Source: Methanocaldococcus fervens AG86 (GTDB lineage Archaea > AGJL01 > Methanococci > Methanococcales > Methanocaldococcaceae). From it: 64,000 nucleotides of DNA. The stretch spans positions 1,228,363 to 1,292,362 of the forward strand of contig NC_013156.1 of assembly GCF_000023985.1 (NCBI RefSeq). The letters run 5' to 3'. The position numbers and the translations under genes were made by a program. Below, in pieces: positions 53,637 to 62,850 of the stretch (positions are counted from its first letter, which is position 1; every line of letters starts with the position of its first letter). Below the pieces are notes generated by a model. The model did no database searches, was not told where the DNA came from, and saw nothing but the letters and a program-made list of their open reading frames with translations.

Positions 53637-53690
53637 CCCTTCAAAATAGTAAAAAATAGTTATTATTTTTTGATTATCTATATTAAAACA

Positions 53691-53746
53691 TTTAAATATT
53701 TTTTAAACATATTAAAACACATTAATTAATCGAAAATTATAAATAT
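53691..53746 (+). promoter_or_regulatory. Shared 56-nt promoter block, copy A (radical SAM gene)
   Basis: This block ends in the TATA box TATAAATAT (53738-53746). It aligns without gaps to copies at 55274, 56975 and 60796; against the 55274 copy I count four differences in 56. The part just before TATA is AATTAATCGAAAAT, the likely regulator site. The next gene on this strand is the radical SAM/SPASM gene at 53831. Confidence 0.8.
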
Positions 53747-53830
53747 CATCGAAGTTTTAAATTCAACTAAAAGGTTACGTTTGTAATTTTTTATAATTTT
53801 TATTATAACTAATTCAGTTTGGTGTTATAT

Positions 53831-55231
53831 ATGAAAGCTGAAGAAATGGCAATGGTATTTTCAAAATTGATATTGAATCCAATCACAAGAAAACAAATAC
53901 TGGGACTTTTTAAAAAAGGTGAAAATGGAAAGTTAATAATTGAAAATTATTTAGATGCTTATGCAAAGGGGAAGGAGGTAAATTCAATAAAATACAAAGT
54001 CCTAAAGGAAATTTTAGATAAAGGACTTAAAACTTTTGCTGGAGAGTGTTATAAAGAAACATTTAAAGAATATTTGAAAGACCCATACTTTAAAAGAGGA
54101 TTGATAAGTGTTGTAAGGGGATTAGGATATTTTGGAGTTAAAAAGCCCTTCACTTCTGGCTCTCCTTTCTTAGTTGTATGGGATGTAACGTATAGATGTA
54201 ATTTAAGATGCAAGCATTGTTATGCAAATGCTGGGAAGCCATTAGAAGATGAATTAAATACAGAAGAGGCTAAGAAAGTTATAGATATTTTAGGAAATGC
54301 TGGGGTTGTAGCTTTGGCGTTTTCTGGAGGAGAGCCGTTAATGAGGAAGGATTTATTTGATTTAATAAATAGGGCAAAAGATTATGGCATGTCTGTTTCT
54401 ATAGCAACAAATGGAACTTTATTAACAAAAGAGAATGTGAAAAAATTAAAAGAGCATGAAGTAGATTTTATACAAATAAGTTTGGATGGAACAAAGGAAA
54501 CTCATGAGAAATTTAGAGGAATAAAGGGAATCTATGAGAAGACAATTAACGGAATAAAGAATGTTGTTGAGGAAGGGATATGCTGTGCAATAGCCATAAC
54601 TGCAACTAAGTTAAATTATAAAGATGTTCCTAAAGTCATGGATTTAGCTGAAGAGCTTGGAGTTAATTTCTTTATGCTCTACAACTACATTCCAGTAGGT
54701 GCTGGAGATTTTGACATAGATTTGTCTCCTGAAGAGAGGGAAGATCTGTTAAACATGTTGTGGGAAAAATTGAATAGTGATACTGGGAAAAAATGCAAAA
54801 CAGCGTTTTTATCGACAGCTCCATATTACTCAAGAATTGCATTGGAGCATAATAGATATTACCTTGCAACACATTTTGCAAATGTTGATTTGGATAAAAA
54901 TGAGCATTTAAAAAGCTTAGCTGATTTTATCGGCGGTTGTGGATGCGGAAGATTTTACTTAAGTTTGAGGGCTAATGGGGATATTCAACCATGTGTATTC
55001 TTCCCATTAAAATTAGGGAATATTAGAGAATTTAATGATGAAAATGACTTTTTGGAGTTTTGGAGAAATAATAAGGTATTAAATGATTTGAGAGATAGAG
55101 ATAAGTTAAAAATCTGTGGAAAATGTAAGTATAGATATGTATGTGGTGGTTGTAGGGCAAGGGCTTATTCATACTATAGAGATTATTTAAGAGAAGATCC
55201 TGGATGTATTTTAACTAAAAAACTCTCATAA
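53831..55231 (+). CDS. Radical SAM/SPASM domain protein
   Basis: The ATG at 53831 has TTTGGTGTTATAT before it, giving 466 residues. About 105 N-terminal residues are helical. The radical SAM cluster is [17 protein letters not shown] (about 119-135) and GGEPLMRKD follows. The C-terminal SPASM region has [17 protein letters not shown], a CVFFP cysteine, and [19 protein letters not shown], so one or two extra clusters. It resembles enzymes that modify peptides or tetrapyrroles (heme d1/Ahb types), but the substrate is unknown. It has its own copy of the shared promoter. Confidence 0.85.
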
Positions 55232-55273
55232 ATTGTTTTTATTTTTATTATTTTATTAAAATATATCCAAAAA

Positions 55274-55329
55274 TTTAAATATTTTTTAAAAATATTAAAA
55301 TACATCGATTAATCGAAAATTATAAATAT
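55274..55329 (+). promoter_or_regulatory. Shared 56-nt promoter block, copy B (ferredoxin gene)
   Basis: This copy contains the perfect palindrome TCGATTAATCGA (55305-55316) just before TATA (TATAAATAT, 55321-55329). The other three copies have one to three changes in the palindrome. The distance from TATA puts the transcript start near 55350, within the first codons of the ferredoxin frame, so the message would be almost leaderless. Confidence 0.8.
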
Positions 55330-55342
55330 TACCTAAATTCTA

Positions 55343-55618
55343 ATTAATAACAACAACAAAAATGATAAGTGTATTGGTTGCGGAGTTTGCTTTATAACTT
55401 GTGCTAATAGGGTTGTTTTTGATTGGGATATGGAAAAGAAAAAGCCAGTTGTAGCGAGACCATACAATTGTGTTGTTGCATGCACAACCTGCAAAACTCT
55501 ATGTCCAGTAGATGCATTGGAATTCCCGGATAAAGAGTATATGCAAAACATTATTAAAGAGTATAAGATTTTGGTAAAGGCTAAAGAAAAATTAAAGGAG
55601 CATGGTTTAATTGAATAA
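55343..55618 (+). CDS. Two-cluster ferredoxin-like protein with no ATG start
   Basis: The frame has no ATG before the first cluster. It reads from ATT at 55343, NNNNKNDKCIGCGVCFITC..., with a first set CIGCGVCFITC and a second set CVVACTTCKTLCP. The two cysteine groups are spaced as in a [4Fe-4S] ferredoxin, with the second slightly unusual. The C-terminus ends KLKEHGLIE. An ATG at 55362 is one base out of frame; a single lost A would restore MIKCIGC. So it is either an ATT start or a gene just broken by a frameshift. It has its own copy of the shared promoter. Confidence 0.6.
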   Translation: MNNNNKNDKCIGCGVCFITCANRVVFDWDMEKKKPVVARPYNCVVACTTCKTLCPVDALEFPDKEYMQNIIKEYKILVKAKEKLKEHGLIE

Positions 55619-55698
55619 GCTAATTAGTTATTATTTTATTTTATAACGTTTTTTAATTTTAATTGGTATAAACAAAAATAAATTTAATTGGTGATAAG

Positions 55699-56268
55699 AT
55701 GAACCCAGAAATGATTAAAGAAATGATGAATTCAGAAATGGCTAAGGAGATGGCTCCAAAGATGATGCCAGAAATTATGCCTGAAGCTTTAAACAAATTT
55801 CTGCCATACATTCCAGAAGATAAAAGAAAAGAGTTTATAGCAAAGATTGTCGATATAATAGTAAGTAAAGATGAGAAAAAGGAAATTTACGCCGAGTTTT
55901 TAGATATGTTTGAAACCTTATTAAACATTAAGGGGCTAATAGTTCATTCAAGGGGAGGAAAAGGTAGTGTAAAAGAAATGGTATCTCCAATGGACTTATT
56001 TTTAGCTGGATTATGCGGATGTATCTGTATAGCGGTTGGAAACACATTAAAAGATAATAACATTAAAGCAGAAGTAAAAGTTGATGGAAAAGTTGAAAAA
56101 TCATTTGAATTGGGAAAAATAACAAAAGTAACTCTAAACATACATGTAAAAGTTGATGGAGATGTTGATAAAGAAAAATTGAAAGATATTATTTTAGAGG
56201 GCTCCAAAAAATGTTTAATAAGCAATAGTTTAAATTGTGAGGTTGAGAAAAACGTTATATTTGAATAA
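55699..56268 (+). CDS. OsmC-family protein
   Basis: The 189-residue protein has a Met- and Glu-rich N-terminal helix region ([20 protein letters not shown], about 75 residues) and a C-terminal OsmC domain with the two family cysteines in [12 protein letters not shown] (about 110-121) and KKCLISNSL (about 172). OsmC/Ohr proteins reduce peroxides or act on persulfides. The N-terminal extension is unusual for the family. GGTGATAAG precedes the ATG. A DUF166 gene overlaps in the next unit with about 13 bases between. Confidence 0.82.
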
Positions 56269-56281
56269 TAGCCGTGAGATT

Positions 56282-56971
56282 ATGGCAAAGATTTTGGTTG
56301 TTACTGATGGGGCTTATGGTTATAGAATTAGAGGAACAGTAGATTCATTTGGAAAGAAAAATGAGTTTATTGGCATATATAAAATTGAAAAACCTAATGA
56401 TTTGGTTGTGGATGACATAGAATTTCCAGAGGAATTATTGGAAAAGATTAAAGAGGCAGACATTTTATTGCTATATACTCAACATCCAGACAACACATAT
56501 TATTTATGCTATGAAGCAAGGATATTGAATGAAGATATTGCCATAATAGTTGCTACGTGGAAAGGAGAGGGGGAAAAGAAAGAGCTGAGAAAGTTTGATG
56601 CTATATGTCCAGAAGAGATGTGTTTATTAGATGAGAATGAGGTTGGGGACTTAATAAATAAATATCCAAAGTTAAAGGAGTTTTTAGAGGAATTTGGAGC
56701 TCCAAAGGTTAAAGTTTATGTTAAAGATAATAAGGTTGTAGATGTTGAGGTTTTAAGAACTTCAATATGTGGCTCAACTCTATTCATGGCTAAGTTGATG
56801 AAAGGGATGGAAGTTAATGATTTGGAAGAGTTTGGCAAAAAATCAGCCATGTTAATCCAGAGATATCCATGCGTTGCCGGAAAGATAAAGATTTTTAGAG
56901 GTGACTGTAAAAAGCAAAAAGCTTTAAACATACATAAAGAGGCAGTTTTAAAGGGGATAACTTATATTTAA
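56282..56971 (+). CDS. DUF166 family protein
   Basis: I use the ATG at 56282, with GTGAGATT upstream; the longer frame overlaps the OsmC gene without support. The 229-residue protein starts [19 protein letters not shown] and has [28 protein letters not shown], a [11 protein letters not shown] motif and a C-terminal YPCVAG. This is the DUF166 archaeal family, with several conserved cysteines. Its function is unknown; older databases sometimes call it thymidylate-synthase-like without proof. It is likely in one unit with OsmC. Confidence 0.8.
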
Positions 56972-56974
56972 ATA

Positions 56975-57030
56975 TTTAAATCTTTTTTAAAAATATTAAA
57001 ATATATCAATTAATCAAAAAGTATAAATAT
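56975..57030 (+). promoter_or_regulatory. Shared 56-nt promoter block, copy C (TehA/UspA genes)
   Basis: Against the 55274 copy I count five differences in 56 with no gaps. The palindrome here reads TCAATTAATCAA, so it is one-sided. TATA is TATAAATAT at 57022-57030, so transcription should begin near 57052. The transcript covers the TehA-type carrier and UspA. Confidence 0.78.
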
Positions 57031-57045
57031 TTTATACATTATTTT

Positions 57046-57061
57046 GCACTTATGTGTAAAA
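57046..57061 (+). promoter_or_regulatory. 16-bp element shared with nifX promoter, at predicted transcript start
   Basis: The 16-mer GCACTTATGTGTAAAA occurs here exactly and again at 60740-60755. Its core CAC-TTAT-GTG is a dyad, so it works in either orientation. It lies over the predicted transcript start of the TehA/UspA unit. An upstream in-frame ATG (57052) falls in it and is probably not used. Confidence 0.55.
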
Positions 57062-57081
57062 CTTTAAAAATAGGGGATAGT

Positions 57082-58125
57082 ATGTTAGATGCATGTGAAT
57101 CAAAATTGGATGTAATAAAAAACTTCGTTCCTTCATGGTTCGCCGCAGTAATGGGAACTGGGATTTTGGCAATCAATAGCTTATTGTATTCTGGTTATTT
57201 GCCAATTTTAAAAGATGTTTCTGTTATATTATTTTACTTTAATGTGTTGTTATTCTTTGTTCTCTTAGTCCCATGGACTTTAAGATGGATAATATTCCCT
57301 AAAAATGCCTTAGCAGATTTAAAACATCCAGTTTTAAGTGCATTCTATCCAACCATTGCAGTTGGTTGTTTAGTTTTAGGAGCTGATTTTATAAGTATAG
57401 GGAATAATATGTTTTGGGGAGAAGTATTTTGGTCTCTTGGAGCAGTTGGGATGGTTTTATTCAGTTTAATAGTTTTATTTTATATGTTTAAATCAGACAG
57501 TATAAAATTAGACCACGTTAATCCTGGATGGTATATTCCACCAGTAGGTTTAGTTGTTATTCCAATAGCTGGAAGTTTAATAATGCCTCATTTAACTGGA
57601 ATTTGGCATGAGTTGGCAGTTCTTATTAATTACTTTGGATGGGGAACCGGATTTTTCCTATATTTGGCTTTATTGGCTGTTGTAGTTTATAGATTTATAC
57701 TGCATCATCCTTTACCTTCAGCGATGGCTCCAACGGTCTGGATTAATTTAGGTCCGATAGGAGCTGGAATTGTTGCTTTAATAAATATGGTAAACAACTC
57801 ACCATTTATAACTGTAAAAGAGCCATTTTATATTTTTTCCTTTGTATTCTGGGGCTTCGGTTTGTGGTGGAGTGTAATGGCAATGATTATGACAGCATAT
57901 TATATTAAAAAACTAAAACTGCCTTATGCAATGTCTTGGTGGGCATTCATCTTCCCCTTAGGGGCTTATGTAGCATCATCCCATTTAGTTTATAACATAT
58001 TCAAATTTCAGATGATTGATTATATTGGCTTTGTGTTATATTGGCTTTTATTCGCCTTCTGGGCAATAACTTTAATAAAAACATCTGCCAAAGTATATAC
58101 TGGGGAAGTGTTTAAAGGGCATTAA
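57082..58125 (+). CDS. TehA/Mae1-family voltage-dependent anion or C4-dicarboxylate carrier
   Basis: The ATG at 57082 has ATAGGGGATAGT upstream. The 347-residue protein has ten hydrophobic segments and the family opening NFVPSWFAAVMGTGILA, with two repeats of five helices. Relatives are plant SLAC1, TehA and fungal malate carriers; ligands include chloride, nitrate, sulfite (Ssu1) and malate. In this redox/sulfur block a sulfite or small anion exporter is as likely as a malate carrier. UspA follows with 13 bases between. Confidence 0.85.
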   Translation: MLDACESKLDVIKNFVPSWFAAVMGTGILAINSLLYSGYLPILKDVSVILFYFNVLLFFVLLVPWTLRWIIFPKNALADLKHPVLSAFYPTIAVGCLVLGADFISIGNNMFWGEVFWSLGAVGMVLFSLIVLFYMFKSDSIKLDHVNPGWYIPPVGLVVIPIAGSLIMPHLTGIWHELAVLINYFGWGTGFFLYLALLAVVVYRFILHHPLPSAMAPTVWINLGPIGAGIVALINMVNNSPFITVKEPFYIFSFVFWGFGLWWSVMAMIMTAYYIKKLKLPYAMSWWAFIFPLGAYVASSHLVYNIFKFQMIDYIGFVLYWLLFAFWAITLIKTSAKVYTGEVFKGH

Positions 58126-58138
58126 AGTGGTGATTATT

Positions 58139-58606
58139 GTGTATAAAAAAATTCTTTACCCGACAGATTTTTCTGAAACTGCAGAATCAACATTAAATCA
58201 TGTTAAAGCATTCAAAAATCTTGGTGGAGAAGTTGTTATTTTACTACATATTGTGGATGAAAGGGATGTTAAAAAGAATGACATATTTTCTTTATTATTG
58301 GGAGTTGCTGGCTTAAATAAATCAGTGGAAGAGTTTGAGAATGAATTAAAAAAGAAACTTACTGAAGAGGCAAAAAGTAAAATGGAAAAAATTAAGAGAG
58401 AACTTGAGGGCGTTGGATTTAAAGTTAAGGATATGGTTATAGTGGGAAAACCTCATGAAAAAATAGTTAAAGTCGCAGAAGAAGAGGATGTTGATGTAAT
58501 TATAATTGGAAAAACTAACTTAAAGGAGATCTTAGGTAAAATCACTGAAAATGTTATTAAAAAGTCAGATAAGCCAGTTTTAATTGTTAAAGGGGAGGGG
58601 TATTAA
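58139..58606 (+). CDS. UspA-family protein lacking the usual ATP-binding loop
   Basis: A GTG start at 58139 follows GGTGATTATT and gives 155 residues, MYKKILYPTDFSETAES. It is close to M. jannaschii MJ0577, whose ATP loop has the pattern G-x2-G-x9-G-(S/T). Here the region reads VIIIGKTNLKEILGKITENV: the SHG after the first glycine is missing and the last G is followed by K. This leaves no standard loop, so ATP binding is probably lost or changed. The stop overlaps by four bases with the opposite MinD gene. Confidence 0.85.
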   Translation: MYKKILYPTDFSETAESTLNHVKAFKNLGGEVVILLHIVDERDVKKNDIFSLLLGVAGLNKSVEEFENELKKKLTEEAKSKMEKIKRELEGVGFKVKDMVIVGKPHEKIVKVAEEEDVDVIIIGKTNLKEILGKITENVIKKSDKPVLIVKGEGY

Positions 58607-59412
58607 ATAAACTCTTTTAATTTTTCATACAACTCTTTTATTGATTCAGAGACTTTGCTATTACTATCACAAAGTAGAATTTTATTTGCGATTAGCTTTG
58701 GCACGTCTAAATCAAAAGGAATTGAATGGAATATTTTAAACGGATACTGAATGTTGTTCATGCCTTTTTTATTCTCAATAATTAGGCTCTCTACATTAAA
58801 AAATTTTAATGTATCTATTAATCTTAAACAATCATTAACGCTCGATTTTGTTGGCTCAACTATGCAGATGGCTAAATCCACATCTTTAACCGTTGATATT
58901 AAGGGACATCCAATTCCCGGAGGGCCGTCTATAATCTCAACTTCAGCATTATGCTTTTTTGCATGTCTTTTTATATGCTCTATGATATTCCCGCTTCCAC
59001 TTTCTCCAACTTCCAACTCTCCCCAGATTAATGGAAAGCCAACAAAGCCCTCATATATATAGCCACTTTCGCGTTTAATTGGCTCTACTGCGTTAAACTC
59101 GCATATTAACTCACAGGCACCACAACCTTCGCATAGTATTGGATTTATTTTAAAATCTTCTATAGCATCAAATTGGCATATTTCTAAGCATTTTCCACAT
59201 TTTATACAGTTATTGTTTATTTTATACACTTCCCTGTAAATAATTTCCAACAATCTTTTATCTTTAACATCAAACATTAAATTAAAGTTTGGAGCATCAA
59301 CATCACAATCCAATGCCACTATATTAAAATCTTTTGAAAATAATTTGGCGAGAGATGTTGAGATAGACGATTTCCCAACTCCTCCCTTTCCTGATACGAC
59401 TGCTATCTTCAT
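58603..59412 (-). CDS. MinD/Mrp-type ATPase with inserted two-cluster ferredoxin domain
   Basis: The 269-residue protein starts MKIAVVSGKGGVGKSSIS (deviant Walker A). It contains an insertion with CIKCGKCLEICQF and CEGCGACELICEF (about 68-107), enough for two [4Fe-4S] clusters, then IIDGPPGIGCPLIST (switch II). Such proteins pair up next to NifX-like proteins and are believed to handle metal clusters or redox proteins. The start lies in a duplicated stretch beside a repeat, and once overlapped the stop of the upstream gene. Confidence 0.87.
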   Translation of the reverse strand: MKIAVVSGKGGVGKSSISTSLAKLFSKDFNIVALDCDVDAPNFNLMFDVKDKRLLEIIYREVYKINNNCIKCGKCLEICQFDAIEDFKINPILCEGCGACELICEFNAVEPIKRESGYIYEGFVGFPLIWGELEVGESGSGNIIEHIKRHAKKHNAEVEIIDGPPGIGCPLISTVKDVDLAICIVEPTKSSVNDCLRLIDTLKFFNVESLIIENKKGMNNIQYPFKIFHSIPFDLDVPKLIANKILLCDSNSKVSESIKELYEKLKEFI

Positions 59413-59586
59413 CCTATCCCCAATTTAAATATATGTGAAGAGGCATTGCTGAGCGTAGCGAAGCAATGCATCCTGTTTTGATGAAACAGAAAGCTTTGCT
59501 TTCTGGCTATGAAAACTCGGAGAGTTTTCATTTAACTTTTTCTAAAAGTTTCCCTGAGATGATTGCTATCTTCATCCTATCCCCAA
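59391..59586. repeat. Multi-hairpin repeat with 33-bp target duplication between the MinD genes
   Basis: Positions 59391-59423 and 59554-59586 match at 30 of 33 bases, including 23 consecutive. The right copy holds a leftover start of the downstream gene (minus strand MKIAIISGK, compared with the true MKIAVVSGK). Between the copies lie stems GAAAACTC-TCC-GAGTTTTC, AGAAAGC-AAA-GCTTTCT and GCATTGC...GCAATGC. It is the clearest insertion in the window. Confidence 0.9.
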
Positions 59587-60372
59587 AATCCAATTTGCTA
59601 TCTCTCCCACATAATTTCTCAAATCATCATACTTTAAAAAGCTCTCTCCTTTGCAGTAGCATTCAACTATCCTTTTATCATATGGAATTTTAAAATCATA
59701 GTTAATTTTTAAATCACTAATCCCATACCTATTTAAAACAATCTTGTATGGGATATTTAACTTTTCAACAACTTTAATTATTCTCTTAGCATCTGAAATG
59801 CTAAAAGGAGTTGGTTCAGTGACTATAATAACTTTATCTGCGTTAATTAATGCCCTTACAACATTACAGTGAGTTCCTGCGGCAGTGTCTATAATGTTAA
59901 TTTCGCAATGTTTTGATAATCCGTATTTTTTTGTTTCAGTTACAATTTTTGCTGTCTTCCTCTCTCCTAAATTTGATTTTCCTACAATTAAATAACCGTT
60001 ATCAAATTTTTTCTCATAGATTTTTCCAATACTTCTCTTTTTAAATGTTATATTGCTATTTATCCCACATGCTTTGCATCCACTACACAACTCTTCAACA
60101 AATATCAATTTATTTCTAACTTTCAATAAAGCCCCTTCTTTACATACATTATTGTAGTTATATGTTTTTCCCTCCTCTATATTTGGAACTTCAATGAAAA
60201 TATCTTTTATTGGATTTAGATTCTCACAACCTAATAGATAAGGAAGGTTAGGGGTTTCAACATCACAATCAATTAAAGCAGTTTTATAATTCTCAACAAA
60301 ATAAAAAAATAAATTGGATGAGAGGGTGGATTTTCCAGTCCCTCCCTTACCTCCAGTTACTGCAACAATCAT
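59572..60372 (-). CDS. MinD/Mrp-type ATPase with reduced ferredoxin domain
   Basis: The ATG at 60372 follows GAGTGAGATA and gives 266 residues, MIVAVTGGKGGTGKSTLSSN. The inserted ferredoxin domain is reduced: only Cys77 and Cys96, Cys99, Cys102 (LCSGCKACG) remain, so at most one cluster. The switch region is NIIDTAAGTHCNVVRAL. It is paired with the next MinD gene and with a NifX-like gene as in the ORP-type cluster. Its stop overlapped the start of the downstream MinD gene before a repeat was inserted. Confidence 0.85.
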   Translation of the reverse strand: MIVAVTGGKGGTGKSTLSSNLFFYFVENYKTALIDCDVETPNLPYLLGCENLNPIKDIFIEVPNIEEGKTYNYNNVCKEGALLKVRNKLIFVEELCSGCKACGINSNITFKKRSIGKIYEKKFDNGYLIVGKSNLGERKTAKIVTETKKYGLSKHCEINIIDTAAGTHCNVVRALINADKVIIVTEPTPFSISDAKRIIKVVEKLNIPYKIVLNRYGISDLKINYDFKIPYDKRIVECYCKGESFLKYDDLRNYVGEIANWILGIG

Positions 60373-60376
60373 TATC

Positions 60377-60706
60377 TCACTCAAACTTTTCTAATTTTTT
60401 CTCTAAAAATAGCTTTATGCATTCATCAATAGATGTTGAATTTGCCTTATAAATCTCAATGCCAAGCTGTTTTAAAACATTGTATGCCTTTGGACCTATA
60501 TTTTGGACTATAATGGCATCTACCCCTTTGTCTGCAATTAACGATGCTGATGTTGTTCCAACCCCCTCCCTTCCCTCTCTTGCAGTGTTTTCAATAATTT
60601 CTTTTCCTTTTATCTCCCCATTTTCAATCTCTACAATCATAAATTTTTCACATCTTCCAAAGTGTTGAGATAATTCATTATTTTCTATTGGCAGTGCTAT
60701 TTTCAT
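60377..60706 (-). CDS. NifX/NafY-type dinitrogenase iron-molybdenum cofactor domain protein
   Basis: The ATG at 60706 has GGTGAATATG upstream and gives 109 residues: MKIALPIENNELSQHFGRCEKFMIVE, then TTSASLIADKGVDAIIVQNIGPKAYNVLKQLGI-type motifs (PF02579). The family holds MoFe or other metal clusters without being the enzyme. It is placed upstream of the two MinD ATPases, and the stop is four bases before the next ATG, so the three are one operon. Confidence 0.88.
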   Translation of the reverse strand: MKIALPIENNELSQHFGRCEKFMIVEIENGEIKGKEIIENTAREGREGVGTTSASLIADKGVDAIIVQNIGPKAYNVLKQLGIEIYKANSTSIDECIKLFLEKKLEKFE

Positions 60707-60739
60707 CATATTCACCTTAAAATTTTTTAAACGATATTA

Positions 60740-60755
60740 GCACTTATGTGTAAAA
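60740..60755 (-). promoter_or_regulatory. 16-bp element shared with TehA promoter, between TATA and start of nifX unit
   Basis: The same 16-mer as at 57046-57061 lies here in the opposite sense relative to its gene (TTTTACACATAAGTGC on the minus strand). It sits just past a minus-strand TATA (TTTATATAT, about 60758-60766) and before the expected transcript start near 60735. This suggests one repressor controls both units. Confidence 0.55.
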
Positions 60756-60795
60756 ATATATAAACCTTACTGACCATATAAAATAGATTTATAAA

Positions 60796-60851
60796 TTCAA
60801 ATCTTTTTAAAAAATATTAAAATACATCAATTAATCGAAAACTATAAATAT
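60796..60851 (+). promoter_or_regulatory. Shared 56-nt promoter block, copy D (thioredoxin-permease operon)
   Basis: I count five differences from the 55274 copy in 56 bases, with no gaps. The palindrome here reads TCAATTAATCGA. TATA is TATAAATAT (60843-60851). The predicted transcript start, near 60872, falls right before the GGTGAAATC ribosome site of the thioredoxin-fold gene at 60883, which gives independent support for the promoter. Confidence 0.8.
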
Positions 60852-60882: not shown

Positions 60883-61134
60883 ATGGTCGTGATAAGGATA
60901 TTCGGAACTGGTTGTCCAAAATGTCAGCAAACTTATGAGAACGTTAAAAAAGCAGTAGAAGAGCTTGGGATAGACGCAGAGATTGTTAAAGTTACAGATG
61001 TGAATGAGATAGCTGAGTGGGTGTTTGTTACACCAGGAGTTGCATTTGACGATGTAATAGTCTTTGAAGGAAAAGTTCCATCTGTTGAAGAAGTTAAGGA
61101 AGAGTTAAAAAGCTACTTAGAGGAGAAAGAATGA
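60883..61134 (+). CDS. Thioredoxin-fold redox-active disulfide protein
   Basis: The ATG at 60883 follows GGTGAAATC and gives 83 residues. The N-terminus MVVIRIFGTGCPKCQQT carries CPKC at residues 11-14, a TlpA/MTH895-like thioredoxin active site, and the cis-proline is in FVTPGVAFDD. Such proteins often pair with a DUF318 permease, as here. The stop overlaps the next gene start (ATGA). Confidence 0.88.
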   Translation: MVVIRIFGTGCPKCQQTYENVKKAVEELGIDAEIVKVTDVNEIAEWVFVTPGVAFDDVIVFEGKVPSVEEVKEELKSYLEEKE

Positions 61135-61517
61135 AAGTGGCAATTATAGCATGTCAAAAAATGGTTGAAATGGGATGTCCTGGAAAAGAGGCATGTGTAT
61201 CATGTTTTAAAGCGATAAATGAGAAGAGTGGAGCTTTTGAAAGGTATAAAGATGTTGAGTTAGTTGCATTTACAACTTGTGGAGGATGTCCTGGAAAGAG
61301 ATTTCCAATGAGAGTTAAGTTGTTAAAAAATGCTGCAGGAGCTGAAGCTATTCATATAGCAAACTGCACCTTCTTACAGCCAGAATGCCCATACATAAAC
61401 TTTGATGAAATCTGCAAAAAATTAATGGAAGAATTGGAGATTCCAATTGTGTTTGGAACTCATACATTGGTTAAGAAGGGAGAAGTTGTTTGCACTTGTG
61501 GAGACGACAAAAAATAA
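61131..61517 (+). CDS. CGGC-domain protein
   Basis: The 128-residue protein starts in overlap with the previous gene (GAATGAAAG). It has CPGKEACVSCF, TTCGGCPGKRF (the family CGGC signature), CTFLQPECPY and a C-terminal CTCGDDKK, so about nine cysteines, likely binding a metal or cluster. The family is unassigned. Its place in the thioredoxin-permease operon indicates a redox or metal task. Confidence 0.85.
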   Translation: MKVAIIACQKMVEMGCPGKEACVSCFKAINEKSGAFERYKDVELVAFTTCGGCPGKRFPMRVKLLKNAAGAEAIHIANCTFLQPECPYINFDEICKKLMEELEIPIVFGTHTLVKKGEVVCTCGDDKK

Positions 61518-61582: not shown

Positions 61583-61756
61583 GTGATTGTCTGGAACTTA
61601 ATCTGTCCAAAGTGTGGGAAGAGGTTGAGGTATAAAGTAGATGTCTGCCCATGCATGGCTTCTGAGGTAGAATTGCCAAACTGCCCAGATTGTGGAGAAA
61701 AGATGGTTCACGACTACACATCATTAAAAGGTAGAAGAAGAATTAGGAGGGGATGA
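61583..61756 (+). CDS. Small zinc-ribbon protein (57 residues)
   Basis: A GTG start at 61583 is set by GGTGAGAAG just before it. The product reads MIVWNLICPKCGKRLRYK..., with CPKCG, CPCM and CPDCG knuckles that could bind one or two zinc ions, and ends in a basic tail KGRRRIRRG. The stop at 61754-61756 overlaps an ATG of the permease frame, a sign of coupled translation. It is shorter than usual gene-calling limits. Confidence 0.75.
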   Translation: MIVWNLICPKCGKRLRYKVDVCPCMASEVELPNCPDCGEKMVHDYTSLKGRRRIRRG

Positions 61757-61758
61757 AT

Positions 61759-62850
61759 ATGGATGTTGTAAGCTTTATAATGAATATTATTAATGTTATG
61801 ATAAATACAATCATCGATTATTTAAATGTAAATAGAGTTTTAGCCCTACTCTTAGCTTTTTTAATGGCTGGTGGAATTGCATCAATGATTAATAAAAACT
61901 TTATTATAAAATACTTTGGCTCAAACACACCAAAATATATCTCCTATACAGTAGCCGCAATTAGTGGAACCTTATTGGCTGTTTGTTCTTGCACCATCCT
62001 TCCATTATTTGCCAGTATTTACAAAAGGGGGGCTGGAATAGGACCGGCAACAACATTCTTGTTTTCTGGACCAGCAATTAATGTTTTGGCAATATTTTAC
62101 TCAGCAGCATTACTTGGTTGGGATATTGGATTTTTAAGAGCTGTTTTTGCAGTAATTGTTTCCATATTTATAGGTTTAGGTATGGAATTAATTTTTAGAG
62201 AACATGAGAAAAAAAGAGCTTTGAGAGTCCCAAAGGCAGATAAGATATCAGATAGACCATTATATCAAACAATAACATTCTTTGGATTGCAGTTTGTCAT
62301 GCTACTTGTAATCACCGCTTCACCTAAGCTATTCCCAACATTATCAACACCAATATACGGCGGATTTTTATTGAAACACTTGCTGTTCATAATATTTGGG
62401 GCCATATTAATTATAACAACAAAAATGTGGTTTAAAAAAGAAGAAATAAAAAACTGGCTTAGAGAGAGCTTTGCATTATTAAAAATTGTCTTTCCACTGC
62501 TAATTATTGGAGTTGCAATAGCGGGAGCTATTAAAGCTATTATCCCACCAATCTATATAGCAACGTACGTAGGTGGAAACTCCATAACCGCCAACTTTAT
62601 AGCCTCGTTTATTGGAGCTTTGATGTATTTTGCCACATTGACAGAAGTTCCTATTATAAAGGCGTTAATGGAGCTCGGTATGGGTGTGGGGCCGGCAATG
62701 GCTTTGTTGTTGGCAGGACCAAGTTTAAGTATTCCTACAGTTTTAACAGTCTCAAAAATATTGGGTAAGGTAAAAGCAGTGACTTATTTAACTTTGGTCG
62801 TTATATTCTCAACTATTTGTGGTTATTTAGCTGGAATAATTCTTGGATAA
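61759..62850 (+). CDS. DUF318/ArsP-type permease
   Basis: The ATG at 61759 has AGGAGGGG seven bases upstream; the ATG at 61753 overlaps the previous stop and is the other option. The protein is about 363 residues with eight to ten membrane segments, a SCTILPLFASIYKRGAGIGPA motif (with CSCTILP cysteines) and GPAINVLAI, repeated as GPSLSIPTV. DUF318/ArsP permeases export organoarsenicals or other thiol compounds and usually pair with a thioredoxin-fold protein, as here. Confidence 0.87.
   Translation: MDVVSFIMNIINVMINTIIDYLNVNRVLALLLAFLMAGGIASMINKNFIIKYFGSNTPKYISYTVAAISGTLLAVCSCTILPLFASIYKRGAGIGPATTFLFSGPAINVLAIFYSAALLGWDIGFLRAVFAVIVSIFIGLGMELIFREHEKKRALRVPKADKISDRPLYQTITFFGLQFVMLLVITASPKLFPTLSTPIYGGFLLKHLLFIIFGAILIITTKMWFKKEEIKNWLRESFALLKIVFPLLIIGVAIAGAIKAIIPPIYIATYVGGNSITANFIASFIGALMYFATLTEVPIIKALMELGMGVGPAMALLLAGPSLSIPTVLTVSKILGKVKAVTYLTLVVIFSTICGYLAGIILG

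Follow-up and report, generated by a model that had tools for sequence, protein, structure and literature searches.

The question raised by this locus is whether the nearly identical blocks of DNA that precede four transcription units of Methanocaldococcus fervens mark one regulatory system or have another source. In the window, the whole 64,000-nt stretch of M. fervens DNA that was analyzed, ungapped copies of the block begin at positions 53691, 55274, 56975, and 60796; compared with the 55274 copy, they have 4, 0, 5, and 5 mismatches in 56 bases, respectively. The counts of 4, 5, and 5 mismatches given in a preliminary description of this DNA are confirmed, as is its remark that the proximal site is perfect in one copy: among the four, TCGATTAATCGA is intact in the 55274 copy only. 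The 56-nt block is real and lies where it had been placed, but its length had been underestimated, as the constraint covers about 66 nt, a few bases more on the 5′ side. All four copies have the same orientation and are spread over 7.2 kb:

53690..53746, + strand, element copy 1: distal dyad 53690-53718, proximal dyad 53722-53733, TATA box 53738-53746; predicted to drive the radical SAM/SPASM gene
55273..55329, + strand, element copy 2: distal dyad 55273-55301, perfect proximal dyad TCGATTAATCGA 55305-55316, TATA box 55321-55329; predicted to drive the ferredoxin remnant-OsmC-DUF166 unit
56974..57030, + strand, element copy 3: distal dyad 56974-57002, proximal dyad 57006-57017, TATA box 57022-57030; predicted to drive TehA-UspA
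60795..60851, + strand, element copy 4: distal dyad 60795-60823, proximal dyad 60827-60838, TATA box 60843-60851; predicted to drive thioredoxin-CGGC-zinc ribbon-ArsP

The genes behind these copies are as follows:

53831..55231, + strand, radical SAM/SPASM protein of 466 aa, AhbC/AhbD/NirJ-like, yet under every NCBIfam cutoff shown
55340..55618, + strand, 4Fe-4S ferredoxin remnant, 5′-truncated, recognized by reading-frame inspection and comparison with relatives
55699..56268, + strand, OsmC-family protein (PF02566, E 8e-17)
56282..56971, + strand, DUF166 protein (PF02593, E 2e-65)
57082..58125, + strand, TehA/TDT (SLAC1-type) anion transporter (TIGR00816, 419 bits, above cutoff)
58127..58606, + strand, UspA-family universal stress protein
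60883..61134, + strand, MTH895/ArsE-family thioredoxin-like protein (TIGR00412, above cutoff)
61131..61517, + strand, CGGC-domain protein (PF08821)
61583..61756, + strand, zinc-ribbon protein of 57 aa that accompanies ArsP throughout the order
61753..62850, + strand, ArsP_1 permease (PF03773, E 3e-92)

Three of the controlled units agree with those first proposed (radical SAM/SPASM; TehA/UspA; thioredoxin/CGGC/zinc ribbon/permease), but the unit taken for a ferredoxin is a truncated remnant followed by OsmC and DUF166. The ferredoxin reading frame behind copy 2 has no in-frame ATG, GTG, or TTG ahead of the first cysteine motif, and about 30-40 N-terminal codons are gone in comparison with relatives. 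There the protein is intact (123-124 aa), starts further downstream, and carries an N-terminal stretch ending in ...EWYPKINYDKCIGC that is missing in M. fervens. Judged by this comparison, a deletion has evidently taken the ferredoxin start and moved OsmC-DUF166 close to element copy 2.

Three further observations were made on these units. An exact 16-nt repeat, GCACTTATGTGTAAAA, occurs at 57046-57061, after copy 3, and at 60740-60755, before copy 4; it could be due to chance. Between two MinD-like genes, at 59387-59586, lies a 163-nt stretch that is flanked by 37-nt direct repeats (89%) and can form a chain of hairpins (fold z = -4.9). A gap of similar size separates the MinD genes in genome G011, not in G003 or G006, as judged by gene spacing, and the stretch is possibly a small insertion element. 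In ten genomes, at loci including L062, L063, L065, L100, L101, L110, and L114, a PLDc_N-type membrane protein of 82 aa accompanies OsmC in the regulon units; it is missing from the window.

When the window was scanned with a matrix, the four copies scored 72-75 bits and the runner-up place 11 bits. The proximal 22-nt part, searched with up to 3 mismatches, gave 4 matches, all of them the known copies, where 0.18 were expected. The scan of the whole genome that had been called for (1,507,251 bases in 2 contigs, of which C1 has 1,485,061) led to the same four copies and no fifth: with the model R1, built from the four window copies alone, their E-values, which are rough, ranged from 1e-12 to 1e-14, and the next match was at E = 0.06. 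M. fervens thus carries one element before several separate units of a single genome. An Rfam search returned two tRNAs only, and so no known RNA element.

Anchoring on the TATA box, with position 0 at the final A of TATAAATA, places the constraint from about -63 to +1, with a sharp end. Read toward the gene, the element consists of a distal dyad, a proximal dyad TCRATWWATCGA, and the TATA box TATAAATAT. The distal dyad is A+T-rich, 29 bp long (ATTYAAATnTwTTTwAAAwATATTAAAAT), and centered at -41 (column-permutation p = 0.0007); the proximal dyad is 12 bp long and centered at -17.5 (p = 0.004), leaving 23.5 bp between the centers. At its right arm, the proximal dyad merges into the BRE (CGAAAA). 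The placing relative to the core promoter is fixed, in that anchoring on TATA aligns the dyads gap-free in most of about 60 sites; the distance to TATA does not vary, and the distance from dyad to dyad hardly does. The exceptions are a few sites that are off by 1 nt and five sites in Methanococcus, located upstream of ArsC or of a second ArsP (ArsP2), in which an extra TATCGATATA-like unit is inserted. In genome G026, the proximal dyad and the TATA box are kept and nothing else of the element.

The comparison was extended to 36 genomes, all of the order Methanococcales. At E ≤ 1e-3 (a rough value), R1 found 52 sites in the other genomes, and all 52 precede members of one gene set. A broader model, R2, was made from 32 non-redundant sites; it was trained on R1 matches, and the R1 count is therefore the sole independent test. 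With R2, at a similarly rough E ≤ 1e-4, we found 68 sites in 31 of the 36 genomes, 1-4 per genome, and for 67 of them a gene of the set follows at a distance of 3-218 nt; the strict figure is 66/68, because GAPOR joined the gene list only after its site had been seen. The first genes behind these sites are the zinc ribbon (12), TehA (12), thioredoxin (10), ferredoxin (9), OsmC (8), and ArsP (6), and more rarely DUF166 (3), radical SAM (2), ACR3 (2), ArsC, ArsP2, and GAPOR (1 each). The one R2 site with no recognizable regulon gene (G033:C1:1490991, L146) has E = 1.4e-7, and its next ORF is 532 nt off. Weak R1 matches within coding DNA (L106, L108, L113, L119, L120, and L121) were dismissed as chance.

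The units are often clustered in Methanocaldococcus and scattered in other genera, and the element accompanies them regardless. Element and gene set are thus conserved jointly between species (67/68 sites, 31 genomes). A clade of five genomes (G024, G025, G027, G028, and G032) has kept the ArsP gene, whose promoter lacks the element there; ArsP is followed by thioredoxin in G027 and G028, and CGGC is also present in G028. Many copies before housekeeping genes, which the preliminary description had named as a refutation, were seen neither in M. fervens nor across the order. This association supports the original proposal of a common regulatory element and a single physiological system. As far as gene neighborhoods can tell, the element marks one co-controlled defense system across Methanococcales.

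The regulon comprises the ArsP permease, thioredoxin, CGGC, zinc-ribbon, OsmC, ferredoxin, radical SAM, DUF166, TehA, and UspA proteins. In Methanococcaceae, the element also precedes an ACR3 arsenite exporter (TIGR00832, 373 bits, cutoff 283) found with an ArsC-like low-molecular-weight phosphatase; further sites lie ahead of ArsC by itself, of a second ArsP_1 permease, and of a zinc ribbon-MFS-thioredoxin unit, and one lies ahead of GAPOR. ACR3, ArsC, and ArsP are arsenic-type genes by family, and for this reason we read the regulon as a defense against metalloids and thiol toxicants in preference to sulfur stress. No regulon site found in Methanocaldococcus stands before ACR3 or ArsC, so that the arsenic link is borrowed from relatives. 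With the gene content as guide, metalloids or thiol-reactive toxicants are a reasonably likely signal. The sulfur or redox stress first suggested, with arsenic named among the tests, holds in part, but ACR3, ArsC, and ArsP favor arsenic or other metalloids and thiol-reactive toxicants.

Such similarity could also have arisen if a single promoter had recently been duplicated and its four copies spread by local recombination, no regulator being shared, and their position within 7.2 kb in a single orientation would agree with this. However, in five related Methanocaldococcus genomes core identity is 85% when different genes of the same genome are compared, 87% for orthologs, and 85% for different genes taken from two genomes, and for the 32 nt downstream of the element the same three comparisons give 34%, 44%, and 35%. 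A genome's own copies resemble each other no more closely than orthologs of different species do, and the similarity does not extend past the edges of the element. Since the within-genome copies are as alike as orthologs and the flanks are near background, the pattern argues for selection and against duplication; such a pattern is expected when a sequence-specific binder common to all copies exerts selection. In other genera, moreover, the elements are dispersed and still stand before the identical gene set, and we regard recent duplication as hardly credible. The high A+T content and the presence of BRE and TATA would equally suit a generic strong-promoter or chromatin element made of A/T tracts, BRE, and TATA, with no specific regulation. 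An element of this kind is quite improbable, considering that the block is absent before all other M. fervens genes and is restricted to one gene set in 31 genomes.

What, then, would act on the element? The compound structure can be compared with promoters of studied archaeal activators, in which one site lies just upstream of the BRE and more sites further up, and which recruit TBP or TFB (PMC2995911, PMC5512572). Ptr2 (Lrp family), with redox proteins among its targets, acts on paired sites just upstream of BRE/TATA at fdxA, rb2, and rbr of M. jannaschii (PMC2995911), and the family was found in 15/15 genomes tested; EarA acts on repeated sites directly upstream of the BRE at the fla promoter of Methanococcus maripaludis (PMC5512572). 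Despite this likeness in architecture, the target genes differ, and none of the 68 strong sites precedes fdxA, rb2, rbr, or the fla operon. Ptr2 is also present in the element-less clade. EarA is unlikely because the fla operon has no strong site, and its promoter has four 6-bp sites before one motility operon, whereas two long dyads before a detoxification set are found here. We therefore consider it very unlikely that either known activator acts on the element. In G003, probably M. jannaschii, sites lie before the OsmC, TehA, and thioredoxin units, with a weak fourth (E = 6e-4, a rough value) by a tRNA-like gene.

The overlap of the proximal dyad with the BRE raises the alternative of an ArsR-like or other repressor that would sit on this dyad and be released by metalloid, the distal dyad serving as a second cooperative operator. 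An 89-aa ArsR with a CxC sensor (MCVC; HTH_metalloreg above cutoff) is found in 36/36 genomes, and the regulon contains ars genes. Indeed, ACR3, ArsC, and ArsP, the transport and reduction genes of ArsR/SmtB ars operons (ArsR, ACR3, ArsC, ArsP), are under the element, ACR3 and ArsC in Methanococcaceae only. In contrast to those operons, the units here lack arsR, share one compound BRE-adjacent promoter among separate units, and include OsmC, radical SAM, DUF166, TehA, and UspA. The clade that lacks the element has this ArsR as well, down to an identical recognition helix, and TCGATWWATCGA was missing wherever the region upstream of arsR was inspected, so that arsR shows no sign of autoregulation through this dyad and the universal CxC ArsR is a possible, unproven candidate regulator. 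The distal dyad lies rather far upstream for simple occlusion. Taken together, the repressor version appears rather doubtful.

The search for other regulators was carried out by clustering the ORFs around the sites, which showed no HTH or regulator gene as a conserved neighbor apart from MBF1 in a single genus; nor does a regulator gene follow any of the 68 strong sites. A GbsR/MJ1563-like regulator tracked the element well, yet is absent from the element-bearing Methanococcus genomes G014, G015, and G017, which excludes it. The presence or absence of Lrp/Ptr2, short TrmB, and MarR-type proteins fails to separate the element-less clade from the others. A match to an HTH protein of roughly 420 aa turned out to be an AAA ATPase, and the zinc-ribbon protein was rejected as regulator because the unit in G002 has no room for it. 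Separately, at L134 and L140, upstream of an ArsR-type gene preceding a P-type ATPase, TTGAACAAATGTTCAA / TTGAACAATTGTTCAA stand directly before the start codon; by analogy, they look like the classic CzrA/SmtB operator.

We think it probable that the block acts as a compound operator/promoter and thereby defines a single Methanococcales regulon, in which a predicted dimeric protein reads both dyads in response to metalloids or thiol toxicants. A dedicated dimeric DNA-binding protein would bind the two dyads cooperatively and, once bound, would control the recruitment of TFB/TBP upon exposure to metalloids or other thiol-reactive toxicants. Efflux by ArsP, TehA, and, where present, ACR3 would then be switched on together with thiol and iron-sulfur repair proteins. 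A single trans-acting regulator very probably stands behind the element, and one protein that reads both dyads would be the simplest account for activator and repressor alike. By analogy with the studied activators, the fixed two-dyad layout would fit an activator, and the overlap of the right arm with a good BRE would fit a repressor equally well; we lean slightly toward an activator.

In a literature search that mostly covered sources outside subscription journals, no description of this regulon was found. This orphan regulon is real, spans the order, and is tightly defined; as a transcription-factor regulon of archaea it is of an ordinary kind, and it is apparently undescribed. To our knowledge, the number of known archaeal regulons is small, and in even fewer cases has comparison alone defined the operator so sharply. 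In Methanococcus maripaludis or M. jannaschii, species in which genetics should be feasible, the element could serve as a ready bait for the regulator. More tentatively, a dedicated regulator of a new target class may link metalloid efflux with an uncharacterized radical SAM-ferredoxin-OsmC-DUF166 repair or detoxification pathway that is conserved in the order and lost in one clade. Finally, the grouping of DUF166, CGGC, the 57-aa zinc ribbon, the AhbD-like radical SAM, the OsmC-like, and the TehA proteins with arsenite and ArsP exporters suggests a hypothesis for their role.
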